A stretch of 64,000 bases of DNA, taken from Acidobacteriota bacterium. GTDB lineage: Bacteria > Acidobacteriota > Blastocatellia > Pyrinomonadales > Pyrinomonadaceae. Below are positions 8,463 to 61,201 of the stretch, in pieces (position 1 is the stretch's first letter; the number at the start of each line of letters is the position of its first letter). A program made the position numbers and the translations under genes. A model generated the notes under the pieces. That model was given only the letters and a program-made list of their open reading frames with translations, made no database searches and was not told the origin of the DNA. The stretch lies in NCBI GenBank assembly GCA_019639175.1, contig JAHBSK010000003.1, forward strand, positions 186,001-250,000, written 5' to 3'.

Positions 8463-9986
8463 ATGAATAGGTCATTACAAAGTTTCTTTATTTTCTGTGC
8501 CGTTTTGCTGTGCTCATTTGCCGCATCGGCTCAGGCGGATGGAACTGTACGCATTACGCTGCTTCATCTAAATGACACTTATCAGTTCACGCCGGTCGAT
8601 GGCGGAACGCGCGGCGGGCTGGCCCGCGTTATGACGATAAAGCAGGAAGCGTTAAAGGAAAATCCGAACACGTTTATGACGCTTGGCGGCGACACGGTCT
8701 CGCCATCGGTCGAAACGCGCACATTTCGCGGCAAGCAGATGATAGACGCGTGGAACCAGATAGGGCTGGATTATTCCGTGCTTGGCAATCACGAGTTTGA
8801 CATCAAGACCGAAGAGATACTGGAACGCATAAAAGAATCAAAATTCACCTGGCTCGGTTCTAATGTGTTCGATACTAAAACGCGAAAGCTCTTCGCTGAC
8901 CTGCCGACCTTTGTCATTCGCGAGGTTGACGGTGTCAAGATCGGGTTCATCGGCTTCCTGCTGCCCGAAACAAAAGAGACCTCCTCAATGGAAGATCATC
9001 TGAGGATCGAGGATTACTGCAAAACGGCAAATGCGCTCATTCCGCAAATGAAGGCCGCCGGAGCAAATACGATAGTTGCCCTGACGCATATGTTCATGTT
9101 TCAGGACAAGCATCTGGCACGCTGTGCCGAGGGCATCGACCTGATACTCGGCGGACATGAACACACGCTGCTCCAATCCTCATCGAACGGCACGCCTATC
9201 TTCAAAATGTGGGCTGATGCACGTCAGGTCGGCAAATTTGACCTTTTCATCGACAAAAAGACCGGCAAGCTGCAAAGCATGGATTGGGAAATTATACCGG
9301 TCACGGATGCCATCGCTGACGCTCCGGGCTTTGCTCCGATAATGGCAAAGTATAAAGATATATTGGAACGGCTTGAGGTACGCGTCGGTGCAACATCCGT
9401 CCCGCTTGATGCACTTTCACATTCCGTCCGCTCAAAAGAAACCGACATCGGCAATTTTATCGCAGACGCATACCGCAACGCGGTTAATGCCGACATCGGG
9501 TTCGTCAACGGCGGTTCGATCCGCGCCGACCTGAGCTACAATCCCGGCCCGCTCACAAAACGCGATGTGCTGTCGATGCTGCCTTTTAACAATCCCATCG
9601 TGAAGGTCGAGGTCACAGGCAAAATGCTGATGGAGATATTGGAACACGGCGTCGCCCGTTCGGCTGAAGACAACGAACCGGGACGATTTCCGCAGGTGTC
9701 GGGAATAAAATTCACCTTTGACGCACGCAAACTGCCCGGCCAGAGGATCATTGAAGCAACAGTCAACGGCGAAAAAATAACTGATGCTGCTGTCTATACG
9801 ATGGCGACCTCCGACTTTCTGGTCACACGCGGCGGCGACGGCTACACGATGTTCAAAAAAGCGAAGATACTCATAAATGCCGAGGACGCTCCAAAAGATT
9901 CCGACGTGTTCGAAAAGGCCATCAAGGAATCGCCCGACGCGACCATCTCTCCCGTCAAAGAAGGCAGGATCACGCGTCTTAATTGA
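8463..9986 (+). CDS. Periplasmic 5'-nucleotidase / metallophosphoesterase (UshA-like)
   Basis: About 507 residues from the chosen ATG, which gives a good signal peptide (SFFIFCAVLLCSFAASAQA). A start at 8442 is possible; the 8394 start adds non-family sequence. The N-terminal calcineurin-like metallophosphatase domain shows LLHLNDTYQF, LGGDTVSPS, LGNHEFD, VALTHM and GGHEHT, the full dinuclear metal set. The C-terminal half is a 5_nucleotid_C substrate-binding domain (GNFIADAYRNAVNADIGFVN, then GGSIRAD; later SDFLVTRGGDGYTMF). Expected to hydrolyse nucleotides or nucleotide sugars in the periplasm for phosphate and nucleoside salvage. Substrate cannot be fixed from sequence. Confidence 0.88.
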   Translation: MNRSLQSFFIFCAVLLCSFAASAQADGTVRITLLHLNDTYQFTPVDGGTRGGLARVMTIKQEALKENPNTFMTLGGDTVSPSVETRTFRGKQMIDAWNQIGLDYSVLGNHEFDIKTEEILERIKESKFTWLGSNVFDTKTRKLFADLPTFVIREVDGVKIGFIGFLLPETKETSSMEDHLRIEDYCKTANALIPQMKAAGANTIVALTHMFMFQDKHLARCAEGIDLILGGHEHTLLQSSSNGTPIFKMWADARQVGKFDLFIDKKTGKLQSMDWEIIPVTDAIADAPGFAPIMAKYKDILERLEVRVGATSVPLDALSHSVRSKETDIGNFIADAYRNAVNADIGFVNGGSIRADLSYNPGPLTKRDVLSMLPFNNPIVKVEVTGKMLMEILEHGVARSAEDNEPGRFPQVSGIKFTFDARKLPGQRIIEATVNGEKITDAAVYTMATSDFLVTRGGDGYTMFKKAKILINAEDAPKDSDVFEKAIKESPDATISPVKEGRITRLN

Positions 9987-9993
9987 CCTGAAT

Positions 9994-11466
9994 CTATTTG
10001 CTCACATTACCAAGCCGGTCAACGCTTTTGACGATGATCTGTTCTATGCCGCGTTCGCCGGACAGAGCTATTGAACGCTCGCTTGCGGGCAGCACCGAAT
10101 GGCTCCAGCCGTTTTTGTCTTTTGCATACACAACGAACCAAAAAGCTTTTACGCTTCCTGTTTCGGTCCACTTAGCCACGGTAAATTCTGCTCCGCGTTC
10201 TATCGTCACCTTTGGCGTGGACGGGGATTTGGCCTTTATCCACGGCGACGGCGGAATGATCGCAGAACGCCGGTAAACATTCTCAAGCAACGCCGCCTGA
10301 ATGCCGCCCGTGTCATTTCTGATCGATTTGAAATTAAAAAAGATCGACCCGCGCGTTTCCGGCGCGAGGCGTGTCCGCTCGATCTGGCTGATTATTTCCT
10401 TTGCGGTGAAATCCTCATTACGGCCTATGCGGTATGTCGCAAGCCCCGGCCAGATGTGGCGTTTCTTCGGATTTTGGCTTTTCCACCAATCCAGCAAAAT
10501 GGGATAGCTCTGCGCCCTGCGGGCAGTTTCCCAATAAAGCTGCGGCGTAAAATAATCGACCGTGCCGTCTCGCAGCCACTTGCGTGAATCTGCATACAAT
10601 CCTTCGTACGCATCAAAACCCTCGATGCCGAGTTCGGGCATTGGCCGCCAGATGCCGAACGGCGAGATGCCGTACATCACGTGCGGTTTTGTCTTCTTGA
10701 CCTTGCGGCCAACGGCCTCGATAAAATTGTTGACGTGCATCCGCCGCCAGTCCGAACGGCTCATCGGTTTGTTCCCGGCAGTTTTCAGATACGCTTCCCA
10801 ATTCTTGTCATCGGGAAAAGGGATGTCCTTATCCTCGGCATCCTTTTCGATATAAGGATAAAAGTAATCGTCAAAATGAACGCCGTCTATGTCGTATCGG
10901 CTGACAACATCCTGTATTACGCGGATGCTTAGTTTTTGAACTTCCGTGTCGGTCGGGTCCATCCACAGATATTTGCCGTATTGGCGGACAAGTTCCGGCC
11001 TTGTTTTTGAGATATGGCCGTCGGACATCGTCGTTGCCGAAGGATGATATGCCCGATACGGGTTGAACCACGCGTGAACCAAAATGCCGCGTTTGTGTGC
11101 CTCGGCGACCAGAAATTCCAGCGGATCGAGGTCTTGCGGCTTGCCCATCTGGCCGGTCAGATATTCCGACCACGGTTCGATCTCAGACCTGTACAACGCA
11201 TCCGCCGCCGGCCTTACCTGAAAAACGACAGCGTTCATCCTAAGGCGCTGAACAAGGTCAAGATCGCGAATGATCTCGGCCTTCTGCTCTGCTTCCGAGA
11301 TGCCTTTTTTTGAAGGAAAATCAATGTTATCGACCGTCGCTATCCAAACTGCACGAAAATCGCGTTCAGGTTCGGGAAGCCGCTGTGCAATGCCGAGAAG
11401 CGGAGAGCCGAACATCGCCGCCAAAAGCCATATCACAAAACATATTGAGCCGACACGGTTTTTCAT
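9994..11466 (-). CDS. Secreted GHL10-type glycosyl hydrolase-like protein (DUF187, YddW family)
   Basis: 490 residues with a signal peptide (ICFVIWLLAAMFGSPLLGIAQ). The body is a TIM-barrel of the GHL10/YddW family: EFRAVWIATV-like RDFRAVWIATVDNIDFPSKK, MNAVVFQVRPAADALYRSEI, LVHAWFNPYRA, DGVHFDDYFYPY and YGISPFGIW. Members are linked to peptidoglycan or other polysaccharide hydrolysis. A C-terminal region of about 90 residues looks like a beta-sandwich. The start codon overlaps the hemW stop as ATGA, so the two are translationally coupled although functionally unrelated as far as known. It is tail-to-tail with the nucleotidase gene, 7 bp apart. Confidence 0.85.
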   Translation of the reverse strand: MKNRVGSICFVIWLLAAMFGSPLLGIAQRLPEPERDFRAVWIATVDNIDFPSKKGISEAEQKAEIIRDLDLVQRLRMNAVVFQVRPAADALYRSEIEPWSEYLTGQMGKPQDLDPLEFLVAEAHKRGILVHAWFNPYRAYHPSATTMSDGHISKTRPELVRQYGKYLWMDPTDTEVQKLSIRVIQDVVSRYDIDGVHFDDYFYPYIEKDAEDKDIPFPDDKNWEAYLKTAGNKPMSRSDWRRMHVNNFIEAVGRKVKKTKPHVMYGISPFGIWRPMPELGIEGFDAYEGLYADSRKWLRDGTVDYFTPQLYWETARRAQSYPILLDWWKSQNPKKRHIWPGLATYRIGRNEDFTAKEIISQIERTRLAPETRGSIFFNFKSIRNDTGGIQAALLENVYRRSAIIPPSPWIKAKSPSTPKVTIERGAEFTVAKWTETGSVKAFWFVVYAKDKNGWSHSVLPASERSIALSGERGIEQIIVKSVDRLGNVSK

Positions 11467-12617
11467 ATAAATACCTCGAACACTTCGTTTGAATATAACA
11501 TCCCTTTTCGCGTGAGCCGGAGACTTTCGGCGGACAAACTGACCAATCCCGCTTCGGCCGATCTCTGTATGTCGTCATTATACATTTCGACGAGGTCAGA
11601 GCCGAAGCGTTTCCGGTACTCGGCAAGGTCGATGCCGCGCTCAAGTCTGAGGCCAAGAAAAACGAACTCGGACGCAGCGTTGATCTTTTCACGATAGTTT
11701 TCAGGGCTTTCGCCGTTTTCGATAGTGGATACGTATTTTGCCGTATCGCGTTCGTTGGCATAGCGTTCGCGGCCGTCAAAAGAATGCGCCGACACGCCAA
11801 ATCCGTAAACGGGTTCGAGCAGCCAATATTTTGTATTGTGCCGCGAGGCAAAACCGGGTTTTGAAAAATTTGAGATCTCGTACTGCTCATAGCCCGCAGC
11901 CGCAAGCCGGTCGAGCATCACCTCATACATTTCTGCCGCCAATTCGTCATCCGGCAGCGGACGGCGTTCGGTTCTTATCTGATCTGCCAGCGGTGTGCCT
12001 TCGTGAATTTCCAGCAGATATAACGAAATATGTTCGGGCTGCATCGCGATGGCCTCTTCAAGATTGCGTGACCAATCCTCAAGTGTCTGCCCCGGCAAAC
12101 CCGCTATCAGGTCAAAACTGATATTCTCAAAACCCGCATCGCGCAGCATTTTAAATGTGTTCCGCGCATCATCGGCATTGTGTCCTCGCGCCAATAGCTT
12201 TAAGTCACGATCATTGAACGTCTGCACGCCAAAACTCGCCCGGTTTATGCCCAGTTCGCGATAAGCCGCCAGCGTTTCAGGCGTTACCGTCGCCGGATTC
12301 ATCTCCATCGTGACTTCGGCGTCATTGGCCACAGAGAACACAGAGGTTAGTGCGTTTAATATCTTTTCAACCTGCGGCGGCGTCAATAACGAAGGCGTCC
12401 CGCCACCGAAATAAATAGAGTCTGGAGTCTGGAGTCCGGAGTCTGGAGCATGAAGGCTTTTGCGCCTGACTCCCAACTCATGACTCAAGACTTCCGCACA
12501 CAAGGCACTTACATACCGCTCGACCGCGTCACCGCTCCGCCAAACATCCGTCGCAAAATCACAGTACGAACACCGTGACTTGCAGAATGGGATATGTAGA
12601 TAAACTCCTGCAGGCAT
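11463..12617 (-). CDS. hemW: HemW-like radical SAM heme chaperone with an in-frame repeat insertion
   Basis: 384 residues. The N-terminus GVYLHIPFCKSRCSYCDF carries the radical SAM CX3CX2C cluster motif (Cys12, 16, 19). FGGGTPSLL, FGVQTFNDRDLKLLARGH and DLIAGLPGQTLEDW are characteristic of the HemN/HemW group; the HemW-type C-terminal HemN_C region (EFVFLGLRLERGIDLAEYRKRF) is present. The lack of the extra HemN N-terminal extension favours HemW, a heme-binding chaperone, over coproporphyrinogen dehydrogenase. Residues about 43-67 (HELGVRRKSLHAPDSGLQTP and flanks) have no counterpart in the family and are encoded by a tandem GAGTC word repeat, yet the frame is kept. Overlaps the next gene by 4 bp. 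Confidence 0.88.
   Translation of the reverse strand: MPAGVYLHIPFCKSRCSYCDFATDVWRSGDAVERYVSALCAEVLSHELGVRRKSLHAPDSGLQTPDSIYFGGGTPSLLTPPQVEKILNALTSVFSVANDAEVTMEMNPATVTPETLAAYRELGINRASFGVQTFNDRDLKLLARGHNADDARNTFKMLRDAGFENISFDLIAGLPGQTLEDWSRNLEEAIAMQPEHISLYLLEIHEGTPLADQIRTERRPLPDDELAAEMYEVMLDRLAAAGYEQYEISNFSKPGFASRHNTKYWLLEPVYGFGVSAHSFDGRERYANERDTAKYVSTIENGESPENYREKINAASEFVFLGLRLERGIDLAEYRKRFGSDLVEMYNDDIQRSAEAGLVSLSAESLRLTRKGMLYSNEVFEVFI
12417..12491 (-). repeat. In-frame GAGTC/GACTC word-repeat insertion in hemW
   Basis: On the coding strand one arm has GAGTC-type words (GAGTCAT, GAGTTGG, GAGTCAG) and the other has four GACTC words (GACTCCG, GACTCCA, GACTCCA, GACTC). The arms are inverted relative to each other around a 16-nt centre, so the transcript can form a hairpin. 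Length about 75 nt, a multiple of three, inserted between the N-terminal helix and the F-G-G-G-T-P strand. Confidence 0.75.
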
Positions 12618-12701
12618 ATAAACGTAAATCTAGCATTAAATCACAAAAAAATATTGTGTCCTTGCCGAATGGGTGCTTTAATATCATTGCCAAGTCGTGC
12701 G

Positions 12702-13664
12702 ATGCAAAAATTTATCTTTATCGTCTTTGTTTTATTATTGGGCAGCTGCACCGCTGAACACTCACCGGTGCGGCAAGAGTCCGAGGCAGTAACGGCGATC
12801 ACTGCACCTGAGGAAATAGTTTTACCAACAAAAGCATCCACACCCGAAACCGAAAAACCAGAATATCCCGGAAAGGCTATTGACGTAGTCTTTCCAAGTA
12901 CTGCGCACCACGGGTTTGACAAAGAAAATCGTAATAAAGCCCTTCATATTGAAATAGATGATTTCATTGTAAATTTTCATAACTACAACCCCAAAACAAT
13001 CACTAAAAATTCTAATGTTATATTCAATTTCAGGATTGCCAATCATGACGAGTATTGGAGTGCATTGGCTGGCAAGTCAAAATTACTTGGAACCGACTCA
13101 TTAGAAATCTACACAGCAACAACTGGACCGGGAGGTGTTTGCTGCACTAATTATTGGATAACTGACCTTTCAGGCCAAATTCCAAAAAATATTTTCAGAA
13201 GTGAAGATTGGGGATTCTTTAGAGAATGGATGGAAATATTTGACGAAGACGGCGACGGTATTTACGAAATAATGCAGTGGGATTCATGCTTTAGATATTT
13301 TATGGATGACTGCGGTTCGTGTTCGCCCGAGCCGAGAGCTTATTTCAAATATGACAAACGACAAAAACAGTATCTTCCGGCAAAAGGCATCACTCAGGAC
13401 TTTTATCTGGAAGATCTTCGAGATACCGAAAAAAGGTTAGATGATATGTTGGCACAGCTACGTGAAGGAAACGATTCTGGCCTATCTCTTGAACACCATC
13501 GCGGAGCTTTGGCTCATTTCGCCAACCTTATTCACATCGGTGAAGAAAAGAAGGCATGGGAATTTCTGAAAAAACATGAAATGAACGACGCGAAGATGAT
13601 CAAGGAAATAAACAGACGCTTATCAGCCTGTCCGTTTTACCAATATCTCAGATCGAAAAAATAA
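12702..13664 (+). CDS. Lipoprotein of unknown function, AT-rich
   Basis: 320 residues from the ATG at 12702, which gives MQKFIFIVFVLLLGSCTAEH with a lipobox (L-G-S-C); the frame opens 48 bp upstream without a signal sequence. No known domain recognised. Visible features are a low-complexity linker after the lipid-anchored Cys, a middle region rich in N, Y and F, the acidic stretch FDEDGDGIYEIMQWD that resembles EF-hand or FG-GAP calcium loops, and several paired cysteines (CC near residue 146 and C-x-x-C at DDCGSCSPEP). Base composition is clearly more AT-rich than the neighbours, a sign of possible transfer. It is divergent from hemW. Confidence 0.65.
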   Translation: MQKFIFIVFVLLLGSCTAEHSPVRQESEAVTAITAPEEIVLPTKASTPETEKPEYPGKAIDVVFPSTAHHGFDKENRNKALHIEIDDFIVNFHNYNPKTITKNSNVIFNFRIANHDEYWSALAGKSKLLGTDSLEIYTATTGPGGVCCTNYWITDLSGQIPKNIFRSEDWGFFREWMEIFDEDGDGIYEIMQWDSCFRYFMDDCGSCSPEPRAYFKYDKRQKQYLPAKGITQDFYLEDLRDTEKRLDDMLAQLREGNDSGLSLEHHRGALAHFANLIHIGEEKKAWEFLKKHEMNDAKMIKEINRRLSACPFYQYLRSKK

Positions 13665-14017
13665 GAGGGTTCATGAAGACGCAGGGCATTAACAGCTAAA
13701 CCACTAGAGCAGATACGAATTGAGTGTAAGGAAAAAATAGCCTCTGTCGGAGACTTTTGAAAAACCGGATTCGGCTGTGCCGCATTGCACTGCGGTCGGA
13801 GCTATGCCCGACCGTAAACTTTCCCCATTATTTGAAAGAGGCTGTGCCTCTGTCTAACAGATCGGAGGCTCAGCCTCAAAAAAGATTGTCATGCATTGTC
13901 ATGCAGCGTTACGGTCGGGCGCAGCACCGACCGCGATGCGTGATGGCGCAGCCCCGACATAAGAGTTCCAAAGGAATCCTGATAATTCATCTGCCATTCG
14001 TGCGATTCGAAACATCT
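13665..14017. repeat. Intergenic region with a composite palindromic (MITE-like) element
   Basis: The 353-bp gap holds no supported gene. A left arm at 13782-13817 and a right arm at 13909-13940 are imperfect inverted copies of each other (shared blocks: TGCGGTCGG, CCCGACCGTAA). Each arm is itself palindromic (CGGTCGG...CCCGACCG; CGGTCGG...CCGACCG). Between them lie two more palindromes, GAGGC-TGT-GCCTC and GAGGCT-C-AGCCTC. A related single arm is found at 48.65 kb. No transposase is present. Confidence 0.65.
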
Positions 14018-16285
14018 TTAAGCCAGCTTCTTTTCAAGCGATGATTCCCAGATCGACTCAAGTTCGCTGACGGATGCGGAGACGGTTTCCGTGCCGTCCA
14101 CGTTCATTTTCAGGACATCGTCCGCGACCTTGCCGATGACGGTAAAGGGACATTCGCCGATGATCTCTTTTACGCGGTCGAGGCTTTCCGGGGCAAAGCT
14201 GATGACAATGCGCGAGGGCGATTCGCCGAACAGCACGGCCTCTGCCGAAATGCCGCAGCTTTCCAGTTCGATGTAGGCGCCGACGGCTTCGCGGTTGAGC
14301 GAAGAGAAACAGCTTTCGGCTATCGCAACGGCCAGGCCGCCTTCGGAACAGTCGTGTGCGGAACAGAGCAGCATCTCATCTGCCAGACGCAAACACGTGT
14401 CCTGAACATTCTTTTCAAGCACAAGATCGAGCCGCGGCAGAACGCCGTGTTCGGTCATCTTCTCGGTTGAAACTCCCGCTACCGCCTTTGCGTACTCGCT
14501 GACCGAAAGATCGTCATTCGTTACGCCGAGCAGGGCGATGATATCGCCTTCTGATTTGAAGCCCTGCGTGATTATCTTTCTCGTGTCCTCTATCAGGCCG
14601 ACCATGCCTATCGTCGGCGTCGGCAAGATTCCTTTGCCGTCAGTTTCGTTATAGAGCGACACATTGCCCGAAACGACCGGCGTTTCAAACACCGTACAGG
14701 CCTCCGCCATGCCGTCTATCACATCCGAGAACGCACGCATCACCTCAGGCCGTTCGGGCGAGGCAAAGTTCAGACAGTTGGTGACGGCGATGGGCTGTGC
14801 GCCGACGCAGACGACGTTCCTGGCCGCTTCGGCAACAGCGTGTTTCGCGCCTTCTTTTGCATCGACGGCGACGTATCTGCCAGGGCCGTCCAGACACATC
14901 GCGACCGCTCGCCGTGTTTCCTTTATGCGGATAACGGCGGCATCGGCTCCCGGCAAGACCGCCGTGTTTGTCCGCACCATCGTGTCATATTGCTCATAGA
15001 CCCAATGTTTTGAACAGATGTTTGGCGAAGCGAGCAGTCTTCGCAAAACCTCATCCGAGACAAGAGACGGGAGACGGGAGACAAGAGATGCTGAGGTCAA
15101 GATCTTGTCTCTTGTCTCCTGTCTCTCGTCTCGATCCAGCATCGGCCGTTCATAACGCGGTGCTTCATCGGTCAGTGCCGATATGGGCAGGTCGGCCTCA
15201 AGCACTCCGTTATGCATGACACGCAGCCTGTCGCCTTCTATCACTTTTCCGATAACGACCGCGTCGAGGTCCCAGCGGTTGAATATCTCGACCAGCTCAC
15301 GCTCGCGGCCGCGGCGGGCGACTATCAGCATCCGCTCCTGCGATTCGGACAGCAGCATCTCGTATGCCGTCATGTCTTCTTCACGCTGCGGGACAAGCGT
15401 CAGGTCAAGTTCCAGGCCGGTTCCGGCACGCGCCGCCATCTCGACCGAAGAACTTGTCAAACCGGCGGCTCCCATATCCTGAATGCCCGCGATAGCTCCG
15501 CTTCGCATCGCCTCGAGGCACGCTTCCAGCAGAAGTTTCTCAAGGAACGGGTCGCCGACCTGAACGGTCGGGCGTTTTTCCAAAGATTCGTCGTCAAACT
15601 CTGCTGACGCCATTGTCGCGCCGTGTATGCCGTCGCGGCCTGTTTTTGCTCCGACATACAGCACCGGATTGCCGATGCCTTCTGCCTTGCCGAAAAAGAC
15701 CTGATCTTTTCTGACCAGCCCCAGGGCGAACGCATTGACCAGCGGATTGAGGCTGTACGATTCGTCAAAAACGACCTCGCCGCCGATGGTCGGAACGCCG
15801 AAACAGTTGCCGTAATGCCCGATGCCCTCGACACAGCCTTTCAGGATCGATCTGTTGCGGTTGCCGTATTTCGGGTCGTCAAGCGGCCCGAACCTCAGGC
15901 TGTTCATTGCCGCGACAGGCCTTGCCCCCATTGTGAAAACATCGCGCAGAATGCCGCCGACACCGGTTGCCGCACCCTGAAACGGTTCGATAAAGCTCGG
16001 ATGATTGTGCGATTCTACCTTGAAAGCGATCCACCAGTCGTCACCTATATCCACAACGCCGGCGTTCTCGCCCGGCGGCACGATCACACGCGGCCCGCTC
16101 GTCGGCAGCCGTTTCAGATGGACGCGCGATGATTTGTACGAGCAATGCTCTGACCACATCACGCTGAAAACGCCAAGCTCGGTCAGGTTCGGCTCGCGGC
16201 CCATTATTTCCTTTATCCGGCCGTATTCTCCGGGCGTCAGGTTGTGTTGTTCTACTACTTCGGGTGTGATCTCTGTCTTGTCCAT
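14018..16285 (-). CDS. purL: Phosphoribosylformylglycinamidine synthase subunit PurL, with in-frame repeat insertion
   Basis: 755 residues, slightly longer than the usual ~735. Catalyses the ATP-dependent amidation of FGAR to FGAM in purine synthesis, working with PurS and PurQ (not in this window). Small-type PurL hallmarks are the N-terminal [69 protein letters not shown] and [15 protein letters not shown], and the second half with [11 protein letters not shown] and [16 protein letters not shown]. Residues about 385-411 lie in the linker before [18 protein letters not shown] and are encoded by an inverted word repeat; the excess length is accounted for by this insertion. Confidence 0.95.
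15053..15133 (-). repeat. In-frame GAGACAAG inverted word repeat in purL
   Basis: About 81 nt. On the plus strand one arm reads GAGACAAGAGACGGGAGAC and continues with GGGAGACAAGAGA; the other arm is its near reverse complement (CTTGTCTCTTGTCTCCTGTC then TCTCGTCTCG), around a short centre containing AAGATCTT-like sequence. It encodes [20 protein letters not shown] plus flanks and keeps the purL frame. Confidence 0.8.
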
Positions 16286-16416
16286 CTTCTGTTAACTCTC
16301 TGAGCAAAAAACAAAACAGTTATTCTATCCTTTTGGCGGTGGTATGTCGATTTATAGAATCCATTTAGTTAGCAGGAAGTATTTAATAGTGCTATTTTAG
16401 AAATGAGGTGTTCAAT

Positions 16417-16644
16417 ATGAACCACTTGGCTATGAAAAAAGTGATCGAGCGTGATCCGGCAAAAGTAAGCGGCGAATGGGTCTTTAAAGGGACCCGTGTG
16501 CCTGTAACCGCTCTTTTTGAAAATCTAAAGGACGGAGCCTCGATAGATGAATTTATCGAATGGTTTCCGGGCGTCAAACGCGAACAGGTCCTGGCAGTGT
16601 TGGATCATAAACTGGCGTCGTTAGGCGAATTGGCCGCTGTATGA
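16417..16644 (+). CDS. DUF433 protein, putative antitoxin of the DUF5615 toxin
   Basis: 75 residues. VIERDPAKVSGEWVFKGTRV, then PVTALFENL and a D-E-F-x-x-x-F-P-G-V core, is the DUF433 signature, a small helix-turn-helix-like fold common in toxin-antitoxin antitoxins. The ATG at 16417 is preceded by GAGGTG; a GTG nine bases upstream is an alternative. The last codons overlap the next gene as ATGA (16641-16644), the typical coupling of such pairs. It is expected to bind its own promoter and neutralise the downstream PIN-like protein. Confidence 0.85.
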   Translation: MNHLAMKKVIERDPAKVSGEWVFKGTRVPVTALFENLKDGASIDEFIEWFPGVKREQVLAVLDHKLASLGELAAV

Positions 16645-16961
16645 AAATATTGTTCGATCAGGGTACGCCCGTACCGTTGCGCAAAGCATTGGCTGAACAT
16701 TCGGTGGAAACCGCCTTCGAACGGGGATGGCAAACGCTCGAAAACGGCGAACTGCTTGCAAAAGCGGAAAGCGGCCATTACGAGATACTTATCACGACCG
16801 ACCAAAACCTACGATACCAGCAAGATCTTAGTGAGCGGCATATTGCAATAGTTGTATTGCTTTCAACCTCATGGCCCCGGATCAGCAAGCATACAGAAAC
16901 TATTCGGAAAATCGTCAGCGAAACCCTTCCCGGGGATTATCACGAGATCAAGATTCCATAA
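16641..16961 (+). CDS. DUF5615 PIN-like protein, putative toxin
   Basis: 106 residues. MKILFDQGTPVPLRKALAEH with an early Asp, then AESGHYEILITTDQNLRYQQ, is the DUF5615 PIN-like pattern (acidic residues D6 and later T-T-D-x-N-L). PIN-fold proteins are metal-dependent RNases; a nuclease role is inferred from the family only. Translationally coupled to the DUF433 gene. It is convergent with the DinB gene, 5 bp apart. Confidence 0.82.
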   Translation: MKILFDQGTPVPLRKALAEHSVETAFERGWQTLENGELLAKAESGHYEILITTDQNLRYQQDLSERHIAIVVLLSTSWPRISKHTETIRKIVSETLPGDYHEIKIP

Positions 16962-16966
16962 ACACA

Positions 16967-17467
16967 TCACGGAAGAGCCGGAGCGCCCATTGCGGCCCAT
17001 TCTTCCTTTGACGGGCCGTAAATGCCGGGAACGGGCAAACCCGCCTGCCTCATCAGAACGGTCATCTGTCCGCGATGATGCACTTGGTGGGCGATCATGT
17101 AAAAAAGCGTCATTCCGCGTGTCCACGTGTCACCGTACATCTCATCGGTTTGCAGCAGCGTTTCGTCCGTCCAGTTTTTGGCGATCTCATCCGCAACGGA
17201 CCTTGCAGCTTTTTCATACGCGGCGGCTATCTCGGCCACGCTTCGGACAGGTTCAGCTTCGTGATGCGGAGCGTCGATGTTCAACCCGACCAGCCCCAGC
17301 ATCTCTCCCGGTGTGACCGTTGTGTGCCACGCCAAAAAGCCGAGCGAACGCCCGTCATCCGTCACTTTCTGTTCCGCCGCCTCGTCTGTCAGCGTCTGCA
17401 AGACCTTGCCGGTCATTTCGGCCTCATAGGCCCAAGAGTTTTGAAAATCCTCGATCTTTCTGAACAT
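16967..17467 (-). CDS. DinB family protein
   Basis: 166 residues, four-helix bundle of the DinB/YfiT type. The three metal-binding histidines fit LAWHTTVTPGEML (residue ~47) and FYMIAHQVHHRGQMTVLMRQ (around 128-132); the C-terminal AGLPVPGIYGPSKEEW is also family typical. Members are thiol-dependent transferases or damage-inducible proteins of often unknown substrate. A good Shine-Dalgarno (GGAGG) precedes the ATG on the minus strand. Monocistronic by layout. Confidence 0.85.
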   Translation of the reverse strand: MFRKIEDFQNSWAYEAEMTGKVLQTLTDEAAEQKVTDDGRSLGFLAWHTTVTPGEMLGLVGLNIDAPHHEAEPVRSVAEIAAAYEKAARSVADEIAKNWTDETLLQTDEMYGDTWTRGMTLFYMIAHQVHHRGQMTVLMRQAGLPVPGIYGPSKEEWAAMGAPALP

Positions 17468-49118: not shown

Positions 49119-49182
49119 ACCGCAGAGAAACAAAGACGCAGAGCTTTTATTATTTTTCTCTGCGTCTCTGCGTCTTAGCGGT
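49119..49182. repeat. ACCGCAGAG/CTCTGCG inverted word repeat
   Basis: Left arm ACCGCAGAG, AAACAAAG, ACGCAGAG; right arm CTCTGCGT, CTCTGCGT, CTTAGCGGT; an AT-rich centre. Arms match at most positions over ~25 nt. Lies between nadA and the ferredoxin gene and ends at the nadA stop codon. Confidence 0.75.
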
Positions 49183-52091: not shown

Positions 52092-52423
52092 TTCCGTTTC
52101 TCCGGTTATGTTAAATAAGTGTTAAATGAATACCTAAATATAAACGACAGCCCGATGCGGTGTCTATTGACGGTTAAGAAAATCTTTATCACCGCCCTGT
52201 CAGCGGTTATACCGCAGATCATAAATAACGGTCAAAGACCGCCTTTTACGCATATTCAGCGGCTTAACTGCGGTCTCTGACCGCCAATTTACGGTTGATG
52301 TAGAGAATTTGTTATGTGATCGGTGCTAAATAAAGTCGCTATACTTAGCAAAGTGTCAGAGTTTGCTAAGTATAGCGATTCTATTTAGCAGCATTATCAA
52401 AAGGCAGTACGGAAGTGTTCCCT
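52092..52423. repeat. Intergenic palindromes between the pit and pst operons, including a 29-bp inverted repeat
   Basis: No gene. Three short palindromes: GCGGT-TAT-ACCGC (52203-52215), CGGTC-AAA-GACCG (52229-52241), GCGGTC-TCT-GACCGC (52270-52284). Then a long inverted repeat: arms 52324-52352 and 52362-52390, 27 of 29 positions pairing around a 9-nt centre; the inner 17 pairs (TCGCTATACTTAGCAAA and its complement) are perfect. It ends 34 bp from the phoU stop and may also terminate the pst-phoU transcript, but has no T-run. Confidence 0.8.
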
Positions 52424-60847: not shown

Positions 60848-61201
60848 TAAAAAGGCTCCTGAACAGTAAGCCCAGATTATCACACGCGCGAAAAGCAAAA
60901 AAGCTCCAAAAAATATCCGCAAATAAAGCGTTAGGCAAGTGATATGGATCTTGCTCCTATTCTTCTTTGCGATTTTTTTTGCGAACCTGGCGGCTTTGCG
61001 TGGGAAAAAAGCAGTTTCACGCAAAGCCGCAAAGAACGCAAAGAAAGAAATAAGGAAGATAACGTCTTTCGCGTGACCCACGTTGAAAAAATTGAATCTT
61101 TTTGCCGTTAATGCGATTATTACCTTGTTTCGGCACGGCGGAAATGCCGAACATCCTGTTGTGGCTCTTCGTAATCTAAATCTGTTGGGGTTTGTGAAAT
61201 T
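60848..61201. repeat. Intergenic region with a CTTTGCG/CGCAAAG hairpin element
   Basis: 354 bp without gene. At 60966-61043 an imperfect inverted repeat has CTTTGCG and GCGGCTTTGCGTG on the left and CACGCAAAGCCGC, then AACGCAAAG on the right; the inner 13 pairs are perfect. Same family as the elements at 0.15, 22.1, 38.1 and 49.1 kb. The remainder is plain AT-rich sequence that presumably holds the promoters of yacG and the downstream plus-strand gene. Confidence 0.7.

Follow-up and report, generated by a model that had tools for sequence, protein, structure and literature searches.

A heptad hairpin within hemW

The stretch of DNA analysed here (64,000 nt, hereafter the window) contains a hemW gene for a radical SAM heme chaperone at 11463..12617 on the minus strand. 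Its intact 384-aa ORF scored 276 bits on the TIGR00539 HemW equivalog profile, above the cut-off of 205, and carries the radical SAM CxxxCxxC motif as CKSRCSYC; the top Foldseek match was E. coli HemN (1olt, TM 0.84). The host genome (G000) belongs to an uncultured member of the Acidobacteriota, and its nearest named relatives are Pyrinomonadaceae/Blastocatellia MAGs, the closest being the isolate ACE_ACI3, at 83% in HemW. In what follows G014 is the sister species, and other G numbers are further genomes compared.

Inside hemW lies a GAGTC/GACTC heptad repeat (12418..12493, minus strand) that codes for approximately residues 42-67 (EVLSHELGVRRKSLHAPDSGLQTPDS) and reads AAGTCTTGAGTCATGAGTTGGGAGTC ... 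GCTCCAGACTCCGGACTCCAGACTCCAGACTC on the mRNA strand (12493-12418). TRF described it as GAGTCTG x4.4, and the word stretch exceeds chance. An earlier note on this DNA had pointed to these words as a run of a length divisible by three in which no stop arises, and this is what we found: the words are present and the segment is in frame and stop-free within the intact ORF. Beyond that note, the two sets of words form the arms of a single imperfect hairpin, with GAGTC-type heptads as the 5' arm on the mRNA strand (12461..12495), a 10-nt terminal loop (12451..12460) and GACTC heptads as the 3' arm (12417..12450; all on the minus strand). The predicted RNA fold has an energy of -39.9 kcal/mol (z -4.67), which none of 200 shuffles equalled, and the DNA fold a z of -4.32. 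An Rfam scan of 9000-17000 gave no family at gathering score and only sub-threshold miRNA-precursor matches, such as long hairpins of any kind usually elicit.

From YCDF to FGGG the HemW linker spans 47 aa in G000 and G014. The range is 34-41 aa among 17 congeners and 33-43 aa among ten genomes of other families, none of which exceeds 43. The repeat codes for about 26 residues, close to the insertion of some 25 residues claimed earlier; however, compared with 36 aa, the most frequent length among congeners, the protein is lengthened by about 11 aa, hence the repeat extends and at the same time replaces a native variable linker. An AlphaFold2 model of HemW (25-row alignment) has a mean pLDDT of 90.9 and falls below 50 solely at residues 54-60, with the segment placed after helix 29-53 and before strand 65-71. 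In this model the segment is predicted to occupy the alpha1-beta2 surface loop of the radical-SAM barrel, a low-confidence loop; the earlier note had proposed structure prediction to see whether the segment is a surface loop.

Another repeat word, which reads CTCTGTGTTCTCTGTGG on the mRNA strand, is found at 12329-12345. It codes for SVFSVA in a different loop of HemW, the one preceding strand 101-106, and this loop has its native length. Its DNA is near-identical in G014, G010 and G027, partly present in G007, G019 and G020, and missing from most congeners.

The HemW site and the PurL linkers across the genus

At the site of the repeat, 36 congeneric HemWs divide into 17 with short and 19 with long linkers (47-70 residues), and the reading frame is open through the site in every recovered congeneric HemW. 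Near-empty sites, which the earlier note had expected to find by alignment, do exist among these congeners. The inserted DNA comprises at least four unrelated repeat families and four unclassified cases (G023, G027, G034 and G035). GAGTC heptads (type 1) are present in G000 and G014. Type 2, GAACCGCCTGCGTTAGCGGGCGG..., is a paired palindrome (GAACCGCC..GGCGGTTC) with REPIN-like paired arms of about 35 nt and a variable middle, and occupies the site in G005, G010, G018, G020, G026 and G031. An ATCTGCG palindrome (type 3, CCGCAGATGA..ATCTGCGG) is found in G003, G006, G008, G013, G017 and G030, degraded in some of them, while GAAATTC heptads (type 4) stand within linkers of native length in G025, G007, G001 and G015; heptads at native length also occur in G022 and G032. 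In G019, GTCTC heptads (type 5) lie on an apparent type-2 remnant (REIRTEPRSLA, compared with REIRSEPPALA in its sister G010).

A tree of HemW+PurL was constructed with the insert columns left out, and several of its deep branches are weak. On this tree the families at the HemW site require a minimum of 14 changes by parsimony, a count in which gain and loss are indistinguishable. The site is a recurrent one for several repeat families rather than the scene of one event. The segment of the window is not conserved beyond the sister G014, so conservation across phyla, which the earlier note had named as the observation that would count against it, is not seen.

In three pairs of related species that share an insert, the inserts show 19 nonsynonymous to 7 synonymous codon changes, as against 68 to 213 in the flanks (Fisher p 9e-7), and these codons, if mutated at random, would be expected to yield 2.85:1. 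An insert ratio so different from that of the flanks and so near the mutational expectation indicates a peptide without visible constraint. The encoded peptide is presumably translated, given the open frames, and presumably serves no purpose in itself. We considered whether the segment is specially conserved at the nucleotide level, since G000 and G014 are 92% identical within it and 80% identical in the remainder of the gene, but rejected this, as identity is 92-97% throughout the 5' part of the gene.

Also beyond the earlier note, a second heptad palindrome lies in purL (14018..16285, minus strand; 755 aa; PRK01213, 1007 bits), 1.4 kb from hemW in the window. It consists of GAGACNN/GTCTCNN heptads at 15056..15133 (minus strand), in frame within the PurL linker that runs from TDEAPRY to LLASPN, with a hairpin z of -5.2 and a lag-7 match of 0.86. 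Its heptad word differs from that of hemW, and the sister G014 holds a different sequence there. Two PurL linkers carry repeats in the genus, one after NSLRFGP and one after TDEAPKY, and their words include GAGACNN, AGTCCAA, GTTCAAA/GGAACCT, ATTCCAA, GTTGATA, GGGATGA and GCGGAAT as well as type-2 repeats. These repeats differ even between the sisters G000 and G014, and one of the linkers requires a minimum of 14 family changes on the same tree. In G023 (L154), linker 1 of PurL contains a 228-nt GC-rich palindromic repeat in frame, amounting to about 67 extra residues.

Self-matching over all sequences gave lag 7 as the top short lag at all three sites (HemW and the two PurL linkers), with z values against shuffles of 7.3, 6.0 and 16.3, lag 14 being the harmonic. 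Since 7 is not a multiple of 3, this period is no codon-level pattern.

Dispersal and origin of the repeats

Our genome-wide statements on G000 draw on pattern searches together with 450 kb from the contig of the window (C15). This 450 kb contains 15 lag-7 arrays, compared with 0.25 in simulated sequence, and 0-5 arrays at lags 5, 6 and 8-11. About one third of the lag-7 arrays lie inside ORFs, including hemW, purL, thiC and an M14-type peptidase ORF, the last named from sequence alone without a profile; ThiC of the same genome is 47 residues longer than its profile. Elsewhere in G000, a saccharopine dehydrogenase-like gene has GAGTC heptads in frame.

The pattern GAGTCNNGAGTCNNGAGTC gave 30 overlapping matches in G000 (about 14 loci), where its reversed control gave none, and is present in 13 of 41 congeners; the type 2 pattern occurs in 34 of the 41, with up to 58 matches, and the type 3 pattern in 17. 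Beyond the genus, GAGTC heptads are widespread in the family, and in the wider class they reach 577 matches in one genome. The reversed control is itself abundant in some genomes of the class (1368 matches in G042), and CTGAG heptads are therefore another such word. BLAST with the hemW segment found 14 further matches in the same genome, covering 24-53 nt of the heptad array, so that the array is shared and the loop is not. The word of the G016 purL recurs on three further contigs of G016 and is absent from all five of the other genomes tested, and that of G025 recurs on two other G025 contigs and partly in G006; where tested, the words are genome-specific. The hemW and purL elements of G026 are identical over 90 of 90 nt, and the hemW copies of G010, G031, G020 and G018 are 74-81% identical to the G026 element. 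Of all our observations, the G026 twins point most directly to recent copying inside one genome, although they call for caution, as the two copies lie only 1.3 kb apart in neighbouring genes.

Several further arrays were seen. One at about 319.2 kb of G000:C15 (L008 around 1500-1600) passes through GACTCAA, GACTAAT, GACTAAG, GACAAAT, GACAAAG and GACCAAA, a drift which suggests that words may evolve into one another along an array. At about 30.1 kb of G000:C4 (L071 around 1500-1600), a GACTC heptad array stands immediately upstream of a putative tRNA gene. In the window, intergenic palindromes of CTCTGCG and CGCAAAG words lie at 49119-49182 and 60948-61060, and an intergenic inverted repeat at 52324-52390 has 29-nt arms, 93% complementary, around a 9-nt spacer.

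The hemW segment is probably one copy of a small dispersed repeat, made of period-7 words arranged as a hairpin, copied within the genome and tolerated in a protein loop. Resident repeats would be copied by a gene-conversion-like or a single-strand, hairpin-templated route, with slippage altering the number of heptads. Copies might land anywhere in the genome, those in genes surviving only where they preserve the reading frame and fall in a loop of the protein that can accept new sequence, and later copies would overwrite earlier ones. Copying together with survival in tolerant, frame-keeping positions would explain the dispersal, the genome-specific words, the recurrence at one site and the neutrality of the peptide. 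Slippage must contribute, given that copies vary in heptad number, some are one-armed and some linkers are all-heptad at native length.

A rival account is growth in place, whereby polymerase slippage and hairpin template switching would make heptads and palindromes in a variable, unconstrained linker without any mobility. The GAGTC loci of G000 have arrays in common rather than elements and several copies are one-armed, unlike a discrete transposable unit; nor are heptads at native length, as with GAAATTC in G025, G007 and G001 and likewise in G015, G022 and G032, expected from plain insertion. Furthermore, the bacterial excess of heptamers has been ascribed to slippage (PMC4692102, PMC4679880). 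Nevertheless we consider growth in place an unlikely account, because the same word occurs at unlinked loci of one genome and is missing from others, the palindromes of types 2 and 3 are plainly dispersed, and two G026 genes hold the identical 90-nt copies. REP/REPIN-like units might instead be moved by RAYT (Y1) transposases, and Y1_Tnp genes are indeed present in all 41 congeneric genomes (1-21 each), alongside the REPIN-like arms and variable middle of type 2. However, a word-pattern scan of 12 sampled Y1 loci found none bracketed by the hemW families, with isolated partial matches only, and by eye the Y1/RAYT genes of the genus (L156, L161, L164 and L167) are flanked by REP-like palindromes of their own (GTCGCTACGCGAC and CCGTGGGTTTCACCCACGG). 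Inspection of the hemW element ends revealed no GTAG/CGTC end tag, and we think a RAYT origin decidedly improbable.

There is little to recommend a functional segment, whether as a HemW loop of adaptive value or as a coding-region hairpin that regulates the mRNA, even though the hairpin is stable and has been kept by both G000 and G014. Sister species have unrelated sequence or nothing at the site, the peptide changes as it would under mutation alone, and the Rfam scan described above gave no family at gathering score; a function for the segment is thus very improbable. An artefact of assembly or binning deserves almost no credence: although the relatives are metagenome assemblies and some MAG contigs break near purL repeats, independent MAGs from different studies have the same site occupied with the frame open, and the segment is 92% identical between G000 and G014.

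Beyond the reading of hemW as one copy of a dispersed repeat, we advance tentatively, as a possibility that we would not expect to prevail, a family-wide turnover system in Pyrinomonadaceae-type Acidobacteriota. Here some copying process, as yet undescribed and with no transposase linked to it, would write palindromes of genome-own heptad words into DNA, including protein loops, where they would replace native linkers and each other. If so, protein loops would record each lineage's history of repeat words. We found no paper on Pyrinomonadaceae repeats among the open-access (PMC) articles searched.

Collectively, on the best reading of these comparisons, junk-like repeats appear time and again to enter those loops of housekeeping enzymes that tolerate them, and to overwrite what is there. 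To our knowledge, protein-coding palindromes were regarded as peculiar to Rickettsia and Wolbachia, and few cases have been added since. The present bacteria have multi-megabase genomes and share this outcome at high density, and in sister species different families have entered the same codon interval. The HemW and PurL sites may therefore serve as experiments replicated by nature, showing which parts of an enzyme can accept a foreign peptide. The reason for a period of 7 has been a standing question since the bacterial heptamer excess was noticed, and one site followed through many species would be a tractable setting for how heptad repeats spread and why they have this period.

Comparison with known repeat systems

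The earlier note likened the segment to the STRR sequences of cyanobacteria and to Rickettsia palindromic elements (RPE). The heptanucleotide units and the in-frame placement in a housekeeping gene bear out this likeness, but the single event that it implied does not agree with a recurrent site. Acidobacteriota are a phylum of mostly free-living bacteria, unlike Rickettsia. RPE and their Wolbachia counterparts are small palindromic repeats that lie between genes and are also fused in frame within conserved protein genes (PMC2229807), and here too an in-frame palindromic repeat is found in conserved protein genes as well as between genes. As recounted in the passages of PMC2229807 that cite Ogata 2000 and Abergel 2006, an RPE-bearing guanylate kinase is translated and active. 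However, RPE are 105-146 bp units of defined Rickettsia families, whereas here period-7 words of many kinds make up a segment of about 76 nt, the native linker is replaced and one site appears to be overwritten repeatedly. No discrete unit of 105-146 bp conserved over its whole length was found in G000, where matches cover 24-53 nt of a segment of about 76 nt.

The STRR of heterocystous cyanobacteria are degenerate 7-nt direct repeats, and we likewise observe a degenerate 7-nt word that is directly repeated in tandem at sites scattered through the genome; in the P6b region of the Nostoc trnL intron, heptanucleotide repeats pair into a hairpin and vary by repeat number (PMC3488679). STRR are nevertheless chiefly in intergenic DNA, an intron or RNA genes, whereas the present repeats are protein-coding, of other words and in another phylum. 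In Geobacter metallireducens, four tandem heptanucleotides occur in 49 copies both between and within genes (PMC2700814), a distribution like ours, but with differing words, a proposed role as regulatory RNA elements and no cross-species comparison of one site. Intragenic GTAG/CGTC REPs are likewise palindromic repeats inside genes, and recB of two Xanthomonas species has different REPs at approximately the same site (PMC3733652). REPs differ, however, in their short stems and end tag and, for the GTAG families, in the link to RAYT; neither the tag nor, at the 12 sampled Y1 loci, the link was found here.

As whole-element conservation, end tags and, at the 12 sampled Y1 loci, transposase links were not found, we file the hemW repeat under none of RPE, REP, STRR and the Geobacter elements. 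It is best regarded as analogous to them, resembling RPE and intragenic REPs in behaviour and, in material, mostly STRR-like heptads, a likeness in kind rather than a claim to membership of a sequence family.
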